From: Nitrososphaerota archaeon
Lineage (GTDB): Archaea; Thermoproteota; Nitrososphaeria; Conexivisphaerales; Conexivisphaeraceae
Direction: 5' to 3'
NCBI GenBank assembly: GCA_009903775.1
Contig: WYEM01000081.1
Span: 1 to 64,000 of the forward strand
Length of the DNA stretch: 64,000 bases
Part shown: piece by piece, positions 21,581 through 28,782 of the stretch
Position numbering within the stretch: the first letter of the stretch is position 1
Layout of the letters: each line of letters starts with the position of its first letter
Made by a program: the position numbers and the translations under genes
The notes under the pieces: generated by a model
Database searches by the model: none
The model's input: the letters and a program-made list of their open reading frames with translations, nothing else
Told to the model about the DNA's origin: nothing

Positions 21581-22609
21581 TCAAGTCACCACCTCGCTGA
21601 GCCTGCCCGACTCGGCGGCCTCCCTGATCTCCATGGCTATCCTCCTGCCCATGTCCACCGGCTCCCTGAAGTACATGAGGGAGTAGGGGCTCCCGTGGAC
21701 CATGTACACGCTGGTCCCCGCCACTATCCTGCCGGAGAACTCGAAGTACACGACCTCCAGCGTGTCCCGGACTATGGACTCGAGGGAGAAGGGGCCCACC
21801 GGCGGCCTCCCAGTGCGCTCCTGCACCGCGGAGGCGAACGACTCGCCGTCGCGGAGTACGGAGGGGAGCAGGGACTCCCTCAGCACGAGCGGCAGGTTGC
21901 CCACGACCACGAACGTGGGGTCCGCGAGCCCGAACGTCCTGCCGTCGACGTTCGACTCGTACCTCACGTCGAACCCGAAGAGCTCCAGCCTGCCCCTCAG
22001 GGGGCTGTAGAAGAAGTGGTGGTAGGCCGGCACCCCCACGACGTACTCCTGTATTATGTAGGGGCCCTCAACCCCGCGCAGCCTATCCCTGAGCTCCTCG
22101 GGGTCCCTGGCGAAGAAGTAGCCCCTGCCGCCCTTGGCGCCGTAGAGCTTCACGATGACCGGGCCGTCGACCTCCTCCGGGGAGCTGTAGGTCCTGGGCA
22201 CCCTGAGGCCCGCCTCCTCCATCAGCGACATCTTCCTCCGCTGGTCGGCCTCCCAGGCCAAGAGGTACCTGTTGCCGAACGTGGGCACGCGGATCTCCAT
22301 GGCCGCGCGCCACCCGACGTACTCGACGTAGCTGCCGTGCGGCACGATGACCGCCCTCCTGGACCTCAGCTCCTCGGCCGCGGCGGGCAGCTCCCGCAGG
22401 TCCATCTCCAGCACGTCGTCGACGAACCACATGCGGGAGTAGAACCAGCCGCGGCCCGGGGGCGCTATCGCTATCGTGCGCAGGCCCTCGCGCTTGGCCC
22501 CGAGCAGTATCTGGATCGCGGTGTGGCTGGCGACCGTTGCGACCGCGAGGTCCCCGGCGCCATAACCCTCCAAGAGCCCGCCGACGTCCGGCGCGCCCCC
22601 GGCGCTCAA
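21581..22609 (-). CDS. purP: PurP-family ATP-grasp ligase (5-formaminoimidazole-4-carboxamide ribonucleotide synthetase type), copy 1
   Basis: ATP-grasp ORF with PRTYSSPEEVDGPVIVKLYGAKGGRGYFFA; TTG start overlapping the upstream paralogue's stop (TTGA). Confidence 0.85.
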   Translation of the reverse strand: MSAGGAPDVGGLLEGYGAGDLAVATVASHTAIQILLGAKREGLRTIAIAPPGRGWFYSRMWFVDDVLEMDLRELPAAAEELRSRRAVIVPHGSYVEYVGWRAAMEIRVPTFGNRYLLAWEADQRRKMSLMEEAGLRVPRTYSSPEEVDGPVIVKLYGAKGGRGYFFARDPEELRDRLRGVEGPYIIQEYVVGVPAYHHFFYSPLRGRLELFGFDVRYESNVDGRTFGLADPTFVVVGNLPLVLRESLLPSVLRDGESFASAVQERTGRPPVGPFSLESIVRDTLEVVYFEFSGRIVAGTSVYMVHGSPYSLMYFREPVDMGRRIAMEIREAAESGRLSEVVT

Positions 22610-23715
22610 GTCACCACCTCGCTGAGCCTGCCCGACTCGGCGGCCTCCCTGATCTCCATGGCTATCCTCCTGCCCATCGACACCGGATGACGGAAGTAGA
22701 GCGCGCTGTACTGGCCGCCCACCCCCATGTACGCGTTCGTCCCTCCCCCTATCCTGGGGGCCACGTCGAAGACGACCAGGTCGAGCTCTGGCGTGACCAT
22801 CACCTGCAGCGTGAACGGGCCGATGACCCCGGGCGGCACGAGCCTCCTGGCGGCCTCCAGGAACCTGTGGCCGATGTCGAAGGCCTTCTCCAGCAGGCTC
22901 TCCCTCATCGTGGCGGGCTCGTGCCCGACCTCGACGTACCTAACGTCGGGGTCAAGATCCAGCTGATCCCTCGCCGGGAGCCTGTAGACGCCGTCCAGGT
23001 TGCTCTGTATCCTCCTATCTATGCTGTGGAGCTCCAGCCTGCCCCTCAGGGGGCTGTAGAAGAAGTTCAGGTTGAAGTGGGCGCCGACCACCAGCTCCTC
23101 TATGGATGCCGATGCCAGGTCCTCCATCCTTATCAGGCCGTGCTCGGCGAGCCTCCTGGCCTTCTCCATCAAGTCTCCGCCGTCCCTCGCGATGAAGAAG
23201 CCGCGCTCCACGCGCCTCGCGGCCTCCGGGAGCTTCACGATGACCGGGCCGTCGACCTCCTCCGGGGAGCTGTAGGTCCTGGGCCTCCTGATGCCGCCCT
23301 CGTCCAAGAGCCTGTAGTAGTTCGCGGGGCCGACCCTCTCCTCCCACCTCAGGAGGTACCTGTTGCCGAACACGCTGACCGGGAACCTGCGCTCGATGTT
23401 CTCGTAGCCGACGTAGACGGCGAAGGACCTGTTGGGCACGAAGACTGAGCCCTCCGAGCGCAGGTCGGAGGTCACGCGCTCGTCCACAATATCGGCGTAG
23501 TCGTCCAGGACCACGAGGCGGTCGACCACCGGGAACTCCCTGTAAGCCCTCTCCCTGCCCCTCCTGGCCACGGCGATCGTCCTGAGGCCCTCACCCTTGG
23601 CGCCGTCGAGCACGTCGAGGGCCGAGTGGCTTGCCAGGACCGCGACCGATACCTTCACGCTCCCGCCGACCAACCCGGATGGATTTAGCCTTGCCCCCGC
23701 GCGAGCGACCTGCAC
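22606..23715 (-). CDS. purP: PurP-family ATP-grasp ligase, copy 2
   Basis: Tandem paralogue: VAVLASHSALDVLDGAKGEGLRTIAVARRGRE...PRTYSSPEEVDGPVIVKLPEAARRVERGFFIA... Confidence 0.85.
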   Translation of the reverse strand: MQVARAGARLNPSGLVGGSVKVSVAVLASHSALDVLDGAKGEGLRTIAVARRGRERAYREFPVVDRLVVLDDYADIVDERVTSDLRSEGSVFVPNRSFAVYVGYENIERRFPVSVFGNRYLLRWEERVGPANYYRLLDEGGIRRPRTYSSPEEVDGPVIVKLPEAARRVERGFFIARDGGDLMEKARRLAEHGLIRMEDLASASIEELVVGAHFNLNFFYSPLRGRLELHSIDRRIQSNLDGVYRLPARDQLDLDPDVRYVEVGHEPATMRESLLEKAFDIGHRFLEAARRLVPPGVIGPFTLQVMVTPELDLVVFDVAPRIGGGTNAYMGVGGQYSALYFRHPVSMGRRIAMEIREAAESGRLSEVVT

Positions 23716-24350
23716 TCCGATATCAGCTCCTGCAGCGAGTCGAAGGCCCGGCCCCCCTCCTCGGAGCGCACTATGATTATCGTGTCCACGTGGCAGCTGA
23801 CGACCTCCTCCACGTTCACCCCCCTGGACGCCAGGCGCTGCAGCAGGGCGGAGACGACCCCCGGGGTTTCCGAGATCTCGGGAGGGCTGACCACCGTGAG
23901 GGCCGCGAGCCCGGAGGACTCGGCCAGGACGCTGCCGGAGGGCACGGAGCGCAGTATCTCGTCGCGGAGCCTGGACTCGTGCACCACCGTGTAGGACGAG
24001 ATGCCCTGGAGCACCTGGAGGAACATCCTCCTGTGCCTGGCCGCCAGCTCGCCCAAGGCGTCCGCCACTTGGGGGGTGCGCCTGAGCACCATCTTCCCCA
24101 GCCCGGTCTTGAGGTCCAGCCTGCTGGCCGAGAGGACCCTCGCGACCGGGAGCTCCGGGCCGCCGGAGAGCTCGGGCCGCCTCATCCTCTTCAGGGCGGC
24201 GAGCACGGAGCCCTCCGTGACGCTCGCCCCTATCAGCGCCTCCACCTGGGGGCGGAGGATCCTGGCGACCGCCGACGCGTTCGCGAAGCCCCTCCTGAGG
24301 GCGGAATCGAGGCAGGGGTCGAGCTGAATGAGCCTCCTCACGTACTGCGA
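23685..24350 (-). CDS. ACT-domain-like predicted regulator
   Basis: VSQYVRRLIQLDPCLDSALRRGFANASAVARILRPQVEALIG... with C-terminal SGLAALTVVSPPEISETPGVVSALLQRLASRGVNVEEVVSCHVDTIIIVRSE (ACT-like). Confidence 0.65.
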   Translation of the reverse strand, partial: SQYVRRLIQLDPCLDSALRRGFANASAVARILRPQVEALIGASVTEGSVLAALKRMRRPELSGGPELPVARVLSASRLDLKTGLGKMVLRRTPQVADALGELAARHRRMFLQVLQGISSYTVVHESRLRDEILRSVPSGSVLAESSGLAALTVVSPPEISETPGVVSALLQRLASRGVNVEEVVSCHVDTIIIVRSEEGGRAFDSLQELISECRSLARGQG

Positions 24351-24357
24351 GACCGTA

Positions 24358-24413
24358 CGTTTTTGGTACAAATGTGACCCATTTTGGCCGTTTTTGGCCA
24401 AAATGTATATAAG
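24358..24413 (+). promoter_or_regulatory. carA promoter (TATA 24405-24411) with upstream inverted repeat and direct repeat
   Basis: attttggcc-gttttt-ggccaaaat (24381-24404) abutting tgtatataagc; cgtttttgg at 24358-24366 and 24389-24397. Confidence 0.75.
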
Positions 24414-24437
24414 CGTTTCGAGCGGGGAGGATCCAGT

Positions 24438-25562
24438 TTGGCCCATCAGGTCTGGAAGCTCCTGGCCATGGAGGAGGGACCGGCCGCCGCGCTGGCCCTG
24501 GCGGACGGCTCGGTGATCGTGGGCAGGGGCTTCGGCGCGGCCGCGACCAGGGTGGGGGAGGTGGTCTTCACCACCGCGATGAACGGGTACACGGAATCGC
24601 TCACCGACCCGTCGTACAGGGGTCAGATACTGGTCATCACGCACCCGCTGGTGGGCAACTACGGGGTGCCCCCCGACTTCGAGTCCAAGAGGATACAGGT
24701 CGAGGGGCTGGTGATCGCGGCTCTCACGGAGCCCAGCCATCCGAGGTCCGAGCGCTCCCTCCACGAGTGGCTGAGGGACGAGGGGGTGCCGGGGATCGAG
24801 GGGGTGGACACGAGGGCGATCGTCAAGAGGATAAGGGGGTACGGCGTGATGCCCGGGGCCCTGGCGGTGAGGGAAGACCCCGAGGAGCTGGACCCCGAGG
24901 AGCTCCTCCGGATGGCCAGGGGCTTCGACTACGAGACCGCGGACTTCCTGGGGCCGGCGCTGGGGCCGGCGACCTTCGGGGTGGGCGGCCACCACGTGGT
25001 CGTGGTGGACTTCGGGATAAAGGGGGGGATCGTGAGGGAGCTCGTCAGCAGGGGGCTGAGGGTCACCGTCGTCCCCTGGAACTGGGGGCTCGGGGGCATA
25101 ATGTCCCTGAAGCCGGACGGCGTCGTGATAGGGAACGGGCCCGGCAACCCGGCGGCTATGGACGCCGCCATAGACCTGGCGCGCGGCGTGGTATCGACGG
25201 GGCTGCCGACGCTCGGCGTGTGCCTGGGCCACCAGCTGATAGCGCTGGCCCTCGGGGCCAGGGTGAACAAGATGAAGTTCGGGCACAGGGGGATAAACAA
25301 GCCAGTGAAGGATCTGTCGAGCGGGCGCCTCTCCATAACGACACACAATCATGGGTACGCCGTGGACCCCGCTTCCCTGGAGGGGAGCGGCCTGAGGCCC
25401 AGGTTCGTCGACATAGACGACGGCACGCTGGAGGGCATGGCGCACGAGCGCCTGCCGGTCCTCACGACGCAGTTCCACCCGGAGGGATCCCCGGGGCCGA
25501 GGGACGCATCATACGTGTTCGACGAGTTCAGGGCGATGGTCGTTGAGGGAGGCAGTATCTAA
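24438..25562 (+). CDS. carA: Carbamoyl-phosphate synthase small subunit
   Basis: AMNGYTESLTDPSYRGQILVITHPLVGNYGV...GVCLGHQLIALALGA...THNHGYAVD; TTG at 24438 or ATG at 24468. Confidence 0.95.
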   Translation: MAHQVWKLLAMEEGPAAALALADGSVIVGRGFGAAATRVGEVVFTTAMNGYTESLTDPSYRGQILVITHPLVGNYGVPPDFESKRIQVEGLVIAALTEPSHPRSERSLHEWLRDEGVPGIEGVDTRAIVKRIRGYGVMPGALAVREDPEELDPEELLRMARGFDYETADFLGPALGPATFGVGGHHVVVVDFGIKGGIVRELVSRGLRVTVVPWNWGLGGIMSLKPDGVVIGNGPGNPAAMDAAIDLARGVVSTGLPTLGVCLGHQLIALALGARVNKMKFGHRGINKPVKDLSSGRLSITTHNHGYAVDPASLEGSGLRPRFVDIDDGTLEGMAHERLPVLTTQFHPEGSPGPRDASYVFDEFRAMVVEGGSI

Positions 25563-28500
25563 GGCGCTGGTCCTGGGCTCCGGCGGGATAAAGATCGCGG
25601 AGGCCGCGGAGTTCGACTACAGCGGGAGCCAGGCGCTGAAGGCGCTGTCCGAGGAGGGGATAAGGACCGTCCTGATGAACCCCAACGTCGCGACGATCCA
25701 GACGTCCCACAGGATGGCGGACCGCGTCTACCTGCTGCCGCTGACCCAGGAGTTCGCCGAGAGGGTCATAGAGAGGGAGAGGCCCGATGCGATACTCCTG
25801 GGGTTCGGCGGGCAGAGCGCGCTCTCCCTGGGCGTCCAGCTCCACCGCTCGGGGGTGTTGGCAAAGTACGGCGTCAGGATCCTGGGCACGCAGGTCGAGG
25901 GGATAGCCAGCGCGCTGGAGAGGGGCGCGTTCAAGGAGCTCATGTCGAGGAGGGGATATCCGGTGCCGCCGTCCGTCCCGGCCGGGAGTCCCGAGGACGC
26001 CATGCGGGCCGCGGAGGACGTAGGCTACCCCGTCATAGTGAGGGTCAGCTTCAACCTGGGCGGCAGGGGGAGCTTCGTGGCCAGGAGCAGGGAGGAGCTC
26101 TCCGAGGGGCTCAGCAGGGCGTTCTCGCACTCCCCGGTCAGGGAGGTCCTGGTCGAGAGGTACTTGGACAAGTGGAAGGAGATAGAGTTCGAGGTCGTCC
26201 GGGACCGCCTGGGCAACTCCGTCGCGGTGGCGTGCATAGAGAACATAGAGCCCATGGGGGTCCACACCGGCGACTCCACGGTCATAACCCCGTGCCAGAC
26301 GCTGACAGATCGCGAGTACCAGGAGCTCAGGAGGGCCTCCATCGGCGTCGCCTCCTCGATAGAGCTCGTGGGCGAGTGCAACGTGCAGCTGGCCCTCAAG
26401 CCGCAGGGCGACGCCTACTACATAATAGAGACGAACCCCAGGATGTCCAGGAGCTCAGCGCTCGCCAGCAAGGCTACCGGTTACCCGCTGGCGTACGTGG
26501 CCGCGAAGCTGGCGCTGGGCTACACCCTGGACGAGGTAGCCAACAAGGTGACGGGGGACACGACCGCGTTCTTCGAGCCGAGCCTCGACTACCTGGTCGT
26601 GAAGGCCCCCAGGTGGGACCTCGAGAAGTTCTGGCCCGTCGACGACAGGCTCGGATCCGAGATGATGAGCGTGGGGGAGGTCATGGCGATGGGGAGGGGC
26701 CTGGAGGAGGTCCTGCAGAAGGCCTTCCGGATGCTCGATATAGGCGTCGGGGGCCTCGTTGGGCCCTCCACGTACGCGGACGGCGACGCCGAGGAGATCC
26801 TGGAGCGCCTGAAGCGCTTCAGGCCGTACTGGATGCTGGACGCGGCCAGGGCGATAGCCCTCGGGGTCCCGCCGGAGCTCATCTCGGAGATCACGGGCGT
26901 TACGCCGCTCTTCACGAGGGCTCTGGAGCGCCTGGTGAGGACCGGGAGGGAGCTCATGGACCTGAAGAGGATGGACGGGCGGTCCCGGAGGGCGCTGCTG
27001 GCTAGGGCTGTGCGCATGGGCTTCACGCCCGAGCAGATATCGGAGCTCTCGGGCCTCGAGCCCGAGGAGGTCGAGGAGCTCCTGAGGGACCTGGAGGAGC
27101 CGGTGGTCAAGGACGTGGACACGCTGGCGGGCGAGAGGCCGGCCAGGACCGGCTACCTGTACCTGACGCACAACGGGTGGGAGGACGACGTGCCCGCCGT
27201 GGAGGGGCGCGGCATCGTCGCCCTGGGGGCCGGGGGTTTCCGCATAGGGGTGTCCGTGGAGTTCGACTGGTCCCTCGTCGAGATAACGAAGGCGCTCGAG
27301 GAGCTGGGATTCCGCGTGGGGGTCGTGAACTACAATCCGGAGACGGTGTCCACGGACTGGGACGTCATGGAGCGCATCTACAACGCGGAGCTGGATCCGC
27401 GCCACATACTCTGGGTGGCCAGGAAGCACGGGACCAATGAGGTGCTGGTGTTCGCGGGGGGGCAACTGGGGAACAACGCCGCGGAGGCGCTCGAGGGCAT
27501 GGGGCTCCGCATAATCGGCACGGCGGCGTCCTCGGTGGCGGAGGCGGAGGACAGATCCAAGTTCGGGAGGCTCGTCGAGCGGCTGGGGCTCCTGCAGCCG
27601 GACTGGACCTGGGCGAGGTCGGTGGAGGAAGCCGTCGACTTCGCGGAGTCGCACGGCTACCCTGTGATAGTGAGGCCCAGCTACGTCCTGAGCGGGTCCT
27701 CCATGTTCGTCGCCAGGAGGAGGGAGGATCTAGAGAGGCTCATGCGCAGGATACTGGAGGTCTCGAGCAAGCCCGTCGTCATAAGCAGGTTCCTCGAGGA
27801 CGCGCTCGAGGCGGAGGCGGACTGCGTATCGGACGGGCGCAACGTGCTGGTGCTGCCCATGGAGCACGTGGAGGGTGCAGGGGTGCACAGCGGGGATGCC
27901 ACTATCACGATCCCCCCCAGGAGGGTATCGCGGAGCGAGCTGAGGGGGATCGCGGGGGCCGCGGCGGCGCTGGCCAGGGAGCTGCGCATAAGGGGGCCGT
28001 TCAACGTCCAGTTCCTGGTGAGGAAGGGCAGCGTATACGTGCTAGAGCTGAACCTGCGGAGCAGCCGCTCCATGCCGTTCGCGAGCAAGTCCTACGGCGT
28101 CAACCTGATGAGGGCCGCGGCGGCCGTGCTCGCGGGGAGGGAGCTGGAGGCCGGACAGGGGCAGGTGGAGCTGGAGCCCGGCGTCCGCGTGCCGGAGGTG
28201 GGCATCTGGAGCGTCAAGAGCCCGCAATTCTCCTGGGCTCAGATACGCGGCGCGTATCCGTTCCTGGGGCCCGAGATGAGGAGCACGGGCGAGGTGGCCG
28301 CGATGGGGCTCACGTTCAGGGAGGCGCTGCTGAAGAGCTGGCTGGCGGCCACGCCCAACCGCATACCCAGGCCCGACAAGACCGCCCTCATCTACGGCAG
28401 GGGCCTGGAGAGGGCGCAGCGCGCCATGTCCAGGGCGGGCTACGGCTGCGCGTCGATCAGGGGGATGCCGCTCAGGGGGTGCGCCGAGCTGGAGGCCGAG

Positions 28501-28782
28501 GACGCGGCTCGGATGATAAAGGAGGGGGAGGTCGGGATCCTGATGACGGACGGGTACGCGCCGGAGCTGGATTACCACGTCAGGAGGGCGGCGGTCGACC
28601 ACAACGTCCCGGTCGTGCTCAATCGCGACCTGGCGGCCGAGCTGGCGCTGGCGATCGAGGACTACATGAACGGGAGGCTGGAGTTCACCTACATGGAGAT
28701 GGGCGAGTACTTGGAGGGCGGGCGGCTCGGTAGGGCTCGATGGTGGCGGGCGGCTTCGACGTCGCAGCGTAGGCGACCATGA
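25543..28782 (+). CDS. carB: Carbamoyl-phosphate synthase large subunit
   Basis: KALVLGSGGIKIAEAAEFDYSGSQALKALSEEGIRTVLMNPNVATIQTS; two ATP-grasp halves, 1079 aa. Confidence 0.96.
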   Translation: MREAVSKALVLGSGGIKIAEAAEFDYSGSQALKALSEEGIRTVLMNPNVATIQTSHRMADRVYLLPLTQEFAERVIERERPDAILLGFGGQSALSLGVQLHRSGVLAKYGVRILGTQVEGIASALERGAFKELMSRRGYPVPPSVPAGSPEDAMRAAEDVGYPVIVRVSFNLGGRGSFVARSREELSEGLSRAFSHSPVREVLVERYLDKWKEIEFEVVRDRLGNSVAVACIENIEPMGVHTGDSTVITPCQTLTDREYQELRRASIGVASSIELVGECNVQLALKPQGDAYYIIETNPRMSRSSALASKATGYPLAYVAAKLALGYTLDEVANKVTGDTTAFFEPSLDYLVVKAPRWDLEKFWPVDDRLGSEMMSVGEVMAMGRGLEEVLQKAFRMLDIGVGGLVGPSTYADGDAEEILERLKRFRPYWMLDAARAIALGVPPELISEITGVTPLFTRALERLVRTGRELMDLKRMDGRSRRALLARAVRMGFTPEQISELSGLEPEEVEELLRDLEEPVVKDVDTLAGERPARTGYLYLTHNGWEDDVPAVEGRGIVALGAGGFRIGVSVEFDWSLVEITKALEELGFRVGVVNYNPETVSTDWDVMERIYNAELDPRHILWVARKHGTNEVLVFAGGQLGNNAAEALEGMGLRIIGTAASSVAEAEDRSKFGRLVERLGLLQPDWTWARSVEEAVDFAESHGYPVIVRPSYVLSGSSMFVARRREDLERLMRRILEVSSKPVVISRFLEDALEAEADCVSDGRNVLVLPMEHVEGAGVHSGDATITIPPRRVSRSELRGIAGAAAALARELRIRGPFNVQFLVRKGSVYVLELNLRSSRSMPFASKSYGVNLMRAAAAVLAGRELEAGQGQVELEPGVRVPEVGIWSVKSPQFSWAQIRGAYPFLGPEMRSTGEVAAMGLTFREALLKSWLAATPNRIPRPDKTALIYGRGLERAQRAMSRAGYGCASIRGMPLRGCAELEAEDAARMIKEGEVGILMTDGYAPELDYHVRRAAVDHNVPVVLNRDLAAELALAIEDYMNGRLEFTYMEMGEYLEGGRLGRARWWRAASTSQRRRP

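Follow-up and report, generated by a model that had tools for sequence, protein, structure and literature searches.

The bacterial arginine regulator ArgR/AhrC, which also controls carAB of Escherichia coli, recognizes an A+T-rich ARG box. Archaeal Lrp/AsnC proteins, such as LysM, FL11 and Sa-Lrp, are one-component regulators in which an N-terminal DNA-binding part is followed by a C-terminal α/β ligand domain, and FL11 responds to arginine and lysine (PMC2995911). No dedicated arginine/carbamoyl-phosphate regulator turned up in the literature searched for Nitrososphaeria and related Thermoproteota, and neither ACT-domain nor arginine regulators of archaea were found among the literature searched, an absence that is no proof. 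Here we analyse a 64-kb stretch of DNA from a Nitrososphaerota archaeon (hereafter, the window) in which a palindrome in front of carAB is very probably the DNA switch of a neighbouring protein resembling amino-acid sensors.

The carA-ACT divergent promoter

On the forward strand of the window, carA (24438..25562, starting with TTG at 24438) encodes the small subunit of glutamine-hydrolysing carbamoyl-phosphate synthase (TIGR01368, 405 bits). It is followed by carB (25543..28782, forward strand, in its longest open reading frame), identified as the large subunit from its translation and from its homologue in G001, a complete genome of the same genus (hereafter, the sister species). A genome-contig search with carA returned bacterial relatives only. 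On the reverse strand, the gene at 23685..24371 encodes a protein with an N-terminal helical domain and two ACT domains (Pfam ACT_7, 29.6 bits; hereafter, the ACT protein), confirming the first-pass annotation, which placed the operator region between carA and a divergent ACT gene. The TTG start of the ACT gene at 24371 is backed by the N-terminal ends of homologous proteins and by the sister species, in which the frame continues upstream for no more than four additional codons. In the AlphaFold model, residues 1-81 form a small helical domain (helices 7-16, 19-26, 32-47 and 53-63) preceding the two ACT domains, an architecture that, by alignment and model, is that of the family as a whole (N-terminal helical domain of ~80 aa plus two ACT domains). 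Regulatory subunits of aspartokinase match the ACT part in both fold (2zho, E 9e-9) and sequence, and the N-terminal domain, modelled alone, yielded no match in a fold search of the PDB. Across the 28 family members scanned, no Pfam or NCBIfam entry calls the protein a regulator. Directly downstream of the ACT gene and on the same strand are two tandem PurP-type (DUF1246/DUF1297) genes (21581-22609 and 22606-23655).

The inverted repeat ATTTTGGCC-N6-GGCCAAAAT, which had drawn attention to this promoter, was re-found at 24381..24404, and its perfect arms reach 10 bp (24380-24389 and 24396-24405). The TATA element reported to follow it, TGTATATAAG, is likewise present (24404-24413), and the TATA box of carA (24406..24413, forward strand) lies in a stretch, CCAAAATGnATATAAGCnTTTCG, that is conserved in the sister species. 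Judging from its sequence, this box is probably used by the ACT gene on the opposite strand as well, and a single TATA box may suffice for both divergent genes. BRE-like sequence flanks the TATA region on both sides (CCAAAATG and CGAAACGC), and the shared TATA region (24396-24420 in the window; the equivalent in locus L066 of the sister species) forms a near-palindrome, which in the sister species reads CCAAAATGCATATAAGCATTTCGG. The half-site CGTTTTTGG, said to occur twice at a distance of 31 bp, is indeed found at 24358 and 24389, the two copies constituting an 18-nt direct repeat (83%), but the copy at 24358 corresponds to codons 2-5 of the ACT gene and, given the start at 24371, is coding.

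By itself, the repeat is not rare, because 17 places in the 64-kb window hold perfect inverted repeats of this class (arms, ≥10 bp; spacer, ≤20); dinucleotide shuffles of the local 83-bp stretch produced such a repeat in 21 of 20,000 cases. The available genome of the organism (G000, about 80% complete) was scanned with pattern matches rather than a weight matrix. No other exact copy of TTTTGGCC-N6-GGCCAAAA and no second copy of TTTTGGCCAAAA, exact or with one mismatch, were found in it, and the loose pattern TGRCCNNNNNTGGYCA gave mostly single hits with G+C-rich centres, in numbers near the control count. Being unique in the available genome, the literal repeat was ruled out as a genome-wide regulon motif, and the suggestion of a regulon at other pyr and pur promoters was not borne out, the genome search having given no further copy. 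The sister species keeps the gene arrangement (carA 81% and the ACT protein 78% identical) and the position of the carA start. Intergenic conservation between the two is confined to three blocks: one is located at the ACT start (TTGTACCAAAAACG), another surrounds the TATA box (CCAAAATGnATATAAGCnTTTCG) and the third lies at the carA start (ATCCAGTTTG). Conservation does not extend to the literal repeat, whose left arm and centre differ, and this loss looked like a refutation until a 16-bp palindrome was recognized in relatives.

A 16-bp palindrome as the conserved unit

The unit conserved across genomes is the 16-bp palindrome TGRCCR-N4-YGGYCA, of which the literal 9-bp repeat is the local appearance. 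The intergenic regions between divergent ACT and argG genes of relatives have such palindromes in common, in the form TGACCA-N4-TGGTCA, and the window contains two that overlap with a 10-bp step. We learned a symmetric 16-bp motif by expectation-maximization from 14 non-redundant ACT-argG intergenic regions, with the window and the carA locus of the sister species left out of the training set. Many of the relatives' genomes are incomplete; moreover, the motif comes from related loci, so that the training sites are not independent; independent tests are provided by the window, by the carA-linked families and by the lysY/argC sites described below. The main palindrome in the window, TGGCCG-TTTT-TGGCCA (TGGCCGTTTTTGGCCA; 24385..24400), scores 18.5 bits, the best of all positions in the 64 kb, and the overlapping second one, TGACCC-ATTT-TGGCCG (TGACCCATTTTGGCCG; 24375..24390), scores 14.9 bits and ranks second; the third-best score anywhere in the window is 7.5 bits. 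When the base composition of the window itself is taken as background, the two sites still rank first and second, the one at 24375 being only slightly above the third, A+T-rich match (13.2 bits). The same two ranks were obtained with a motif built from families f9-f19 only. In 200,000 shuffles of the region, 18.5 bits were reached 21 times, and no shuffle produced a second site of 14.9 bits. Across the family, a site at p<=0.01 is present in 50 of the 65 ACT upstream regions. Both the frequency of similar repeats in the window and the absence of the literal repeat from the sister species are what one would expect if this were a functionless chance repeat in an A+T-rich promoter, but the fact that an independently trained motif returns the top two positions of 64 kb and the identical architecture of other carA-linked families make such an origin extremely improbable.

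In several loci of families f2, f4 and f5, the palindrome overlaps the start of the ACT coding sequence, and part of the conservation in the training set could therefore be coding. For these three families, the conserved peptide MTxxGQ is a possible cause of the near-ACT palindrome. As a general cause it was rejected, because the palindromes of f1 and f9/f10 lie at other offsets or frames and those in the window and before lysY/argC are non-coding.

A start-codon-proximal site seems to have existed in the window as well: a remnant with the right half TTGGTAC (24354..24369) overlaps ACT codons 1-6 and scores below -3 bits. Families f27 and f47 have a weaker second site, with GGTACA at its end, that overlaps the start of the ACT gene at a distance of about 31 bp from the main one, and the 31-bp spacing pointed out in the first-pass annotation is therefore part of a shared layout. 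The carA locus of the sister species has two weak matches at precisely the two places of this layout, of 3.1 and 4.7 bits, which rank seventh and second of 13,986 positions, the latter occupying the start-codon-proximal position; together they are the best pair at that spacing in the locus.

Linkage of the probable regulator and operator across genomes

Homologues of the ACT protein were identified in 55 of 61 near relatives, in 232 of 250 genomes of the class (with the distant f7 paralogues counted in) and in 66 of 250 genomes of the phylum (E<=1e-20). Most loci have the ACT gene in divergent orientation to argG, which is usually followed by argH, argX/lysX, lysY/argC and lysZ/argB; the same orientation was seen at all 35 further loci from families f9-f19, most of which carry the palindrome. 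Outside the class, in families f22, f27 and f47, every examined locus has the arrangement of the window, with the ACT gene divergent from carA-carB, and most of these loci hold the palindrome. In f47, it adjoins the carA TATA box, again as in the window, and in f22 it lies across the ACT start, with carA about 80 bp away. Family f30 comprises one carA-linked and one argG-linked locus, with the motif in neither. In the tree, the window protein and the carA-linked copy of the sister species group with f47 (98/96) and then with f27 (93/94), all carA-linked, and a single origin of the carA linkage is not rejected (p-AU 0.41); by this phylogeny, the window protein belongs to the carA-linked subfamily. 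More distant ACT paralogues, found in family f7 (L085-L087) and as second copies in G004 and G011, are located beside neither argG nor carA.

The idea that the motif should recur upstream of orthologous carA genes holds for f22, f27 and f47, but the motif is degenerate in the sister species and absent where carA has no linked ACT gene, no site having been found at the carA promoters of families in which the ACT gene is not beside carA. At argG, too, the operator goes with the regulator. The sister species has two ACT copies, one linked to argG and the other to carA; there and in G002, the argG-linked copy and the operator are both present (L070, L071). In the window's own genome, argG (G000:C13, position 9607; L162), located with an approximate query sequence (72% match) in a locus that is intact on its contig, has neither an adjacent ACT gene nor the operator, and the TATA region is kept. 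On this comparison, the window's genome represents a natural case of co-loss of the argG-linked ACT copy and its operator. The palindrome might instead be bound by another regulator, such as a protein of the Lrp/AsnC family, given that some arg clusters have Lrp-type genes in their vicinity (family F35) and that DNA binding by archaeal Lrp proteins takes place at short, (semi-)palindromic sites (PMC2995911). However, the motif tracks the ACT gene, not an Lrp gene, across argG- and carA-linked loci and through loss, which makes a different binder very unlikely.

All 11 argG promoters examined in carA-linked genomes lack the operator, and there is therefore no evidence in these genomes for a regulon in trans. 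In four genomes of family f10 (G108, G120, G131 and G135), zero-mismatch pattern matches were found only at ACT-argG and before lysY/argC. The second exact copy of the palindrome lies between argX/lysX and lysY/argC (L157-L160), in front of the lysY/argC-lysZ/argB-aminotransferase genes of Nitrososphaera-like genomes, and may point to a small regulon of arginine/lysine genes. The TGACCA motif is absent from the f6 loci, in which a distant ACT protein is linked to argG, and this fits a change of specificity. Three f6 intergenic regions (L019, L020 and L022) contain repeated TGTTCC-like words in place of the TGACCA palindromes, perhaps a different operator of the diverged regulator.

The near-constant position of the operator in cis to the ACT gene, its absence from argG in carA-linked genomes and the f22 arrangement, with the palindrome at the ACT start and far from carA, would also suit a site that serves ACT autoregulation only, with carA merely sharing the intergenic region and the ACT protein acting elsewhere or post-translationally. 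We consider this improbable in view of the restriction of the gene partners to argG or carAB, the position of the site next to the carA TATA box in the window and f47, and the second f10 operator before lysY/argC, away from the ACT gene.

Predicted mechanism and relation to known systems

Comparative genomics thus supports the core of the original proposal, that is, a putative operator in the divergent promoter with the neighbouring ACT protein as its predicted autoregulator: a motif trained outside finds the site, relatives share the layout, and the examined argG and carA promoters without an adjacent regulator lack the palindrome. The best reading is that the ACT protein is a local, ligand-responsive autoregulator of carAB, as predicted from sequence. 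We consider it likely that the site is the operator of the divergent ACT protein, bound by one or more dimers that would repress both genes in response to an end product. A dimer, or tandem dimers, would occupy the half-sites TGACCC, TGGCCG and TGGCCA, which follow one another at 10-bp intervals along the same face of the helix, with the N-terminal helical domain making the DNA contact between the ACT start codon and the BRE/TATA of carA. Once bound, the protein would lie over the region in which its own gene starts, resulting in autoregulation, and would touch the entry site of TFB/TBP at carA, repression of both genes being the most likely and simplest outcome. The tandem ACT domains would bind the end product, and carbamoyl-phosphate synthesis would in this way be tied to demand. 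Weighing against this reading are the weakness of the carA site in the sister species, the fold search that gave no structural match marking the N-terminal domain as DNA-binding, and the possible coding share in the conservation of the training set.

Archaeal activators can act from a position just upstream of the BRE, which is where the site lies with respect to carA, and the sign of regulation is not fixed by the sequence. Activation of carA combined with repression of the ACT gene is nevertheless rather doubtful, since the right half-site and the BRE region (24399-24405) overlap, so that a protein bound there would be in competition with TFB, and repression is what is expected of an end-product sensor. 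Arginine is the most likely ligand, given that most of the ACT family adjoins arginine genes, and a pyrimidine nucleotide is less likely. The carA-linked subfamily could sense a pyrimidine, because genomes that have this subfamily only carry no operator at argG.

In many archaea of a single phylum, members of the ACT regulator family are located next to genes for arginine or carbamoyl phosphate; the family is apparently undescribed. On balance, we favour the broader view that it constitutes a family of archaeal transcription factors, with an N-terminal DNA-binding domain of its own and tandem ACT sensors, that would provide the arginine/carbamoyl-phosphate regulator so far missing from much of the Thermoproteota, with argG and carAB subfamilies acting on operators in cis and with control shifted in the window's genus by the joint loss of copy and operator. 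If so, aspartokinase-type ACT sensors are joined here to an N-terminal domain without a structural relative, and the argG/carA pairs are a natural record of regulator-operator co-evolution. For direct tests in cultured species, the family makes available a defined protein together with a 16-bp operator and a small predicted regulon.

Similar to ArgR/AhrC, the ACT system is associated with argG- and carAB-type promoters, short palindromic operators and a small amino-acid-linked regulon. By contrast, its operator, TGACCA-N4-TGGTCA, does not resemble the A+T-rich ARG box, and neither the DNA-binding nor the C-terminal arginine-binding domain of ArgR was hit in Pfam or NCBIfam scans of the 28 members. 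The predicted layout of the ACT protein resembles that of archaeal Lrp/AsnC regulators, but it carries a pair of ACT domains in place of a single RAM domain, its N-terminal domain matches no known HTH fold, and the same scans gave no hit to the AsnC-type HTH or RAM domains. The tandem ACT domains are akin to the regulatory ACT pair of aspartokinase in fold and sequence, whereas the amino-acid kinase catalytic domain is absent, replaced by the N-terminal helical domain; the ACT part alone matches, and the scores are far below the equivalog cut-offs. The N-terminal region of 6 of the 28 members weakly matches DUF7523 (PF24367; best E 2e-6), a family entry without an assigned function; for the window protein, residues 8-40 match over 33 of the 158 positions (E 0.003, 18.2 bits versus a cut-off of 27). 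No match above the cut-off over the whole profile was found, and there was no genome match. Among 14 control genomes, DUF7523 was detected only in Haloferax volcanii, and through this haloarchaeal family, a domain related to the N-terminus of the ACT protein may exist outside the Thermoproteota. Overall, the predicted system is known in kind, as a ligand-responsive one-component regulator with a palindromic operator, and it is the family that is apparently new.
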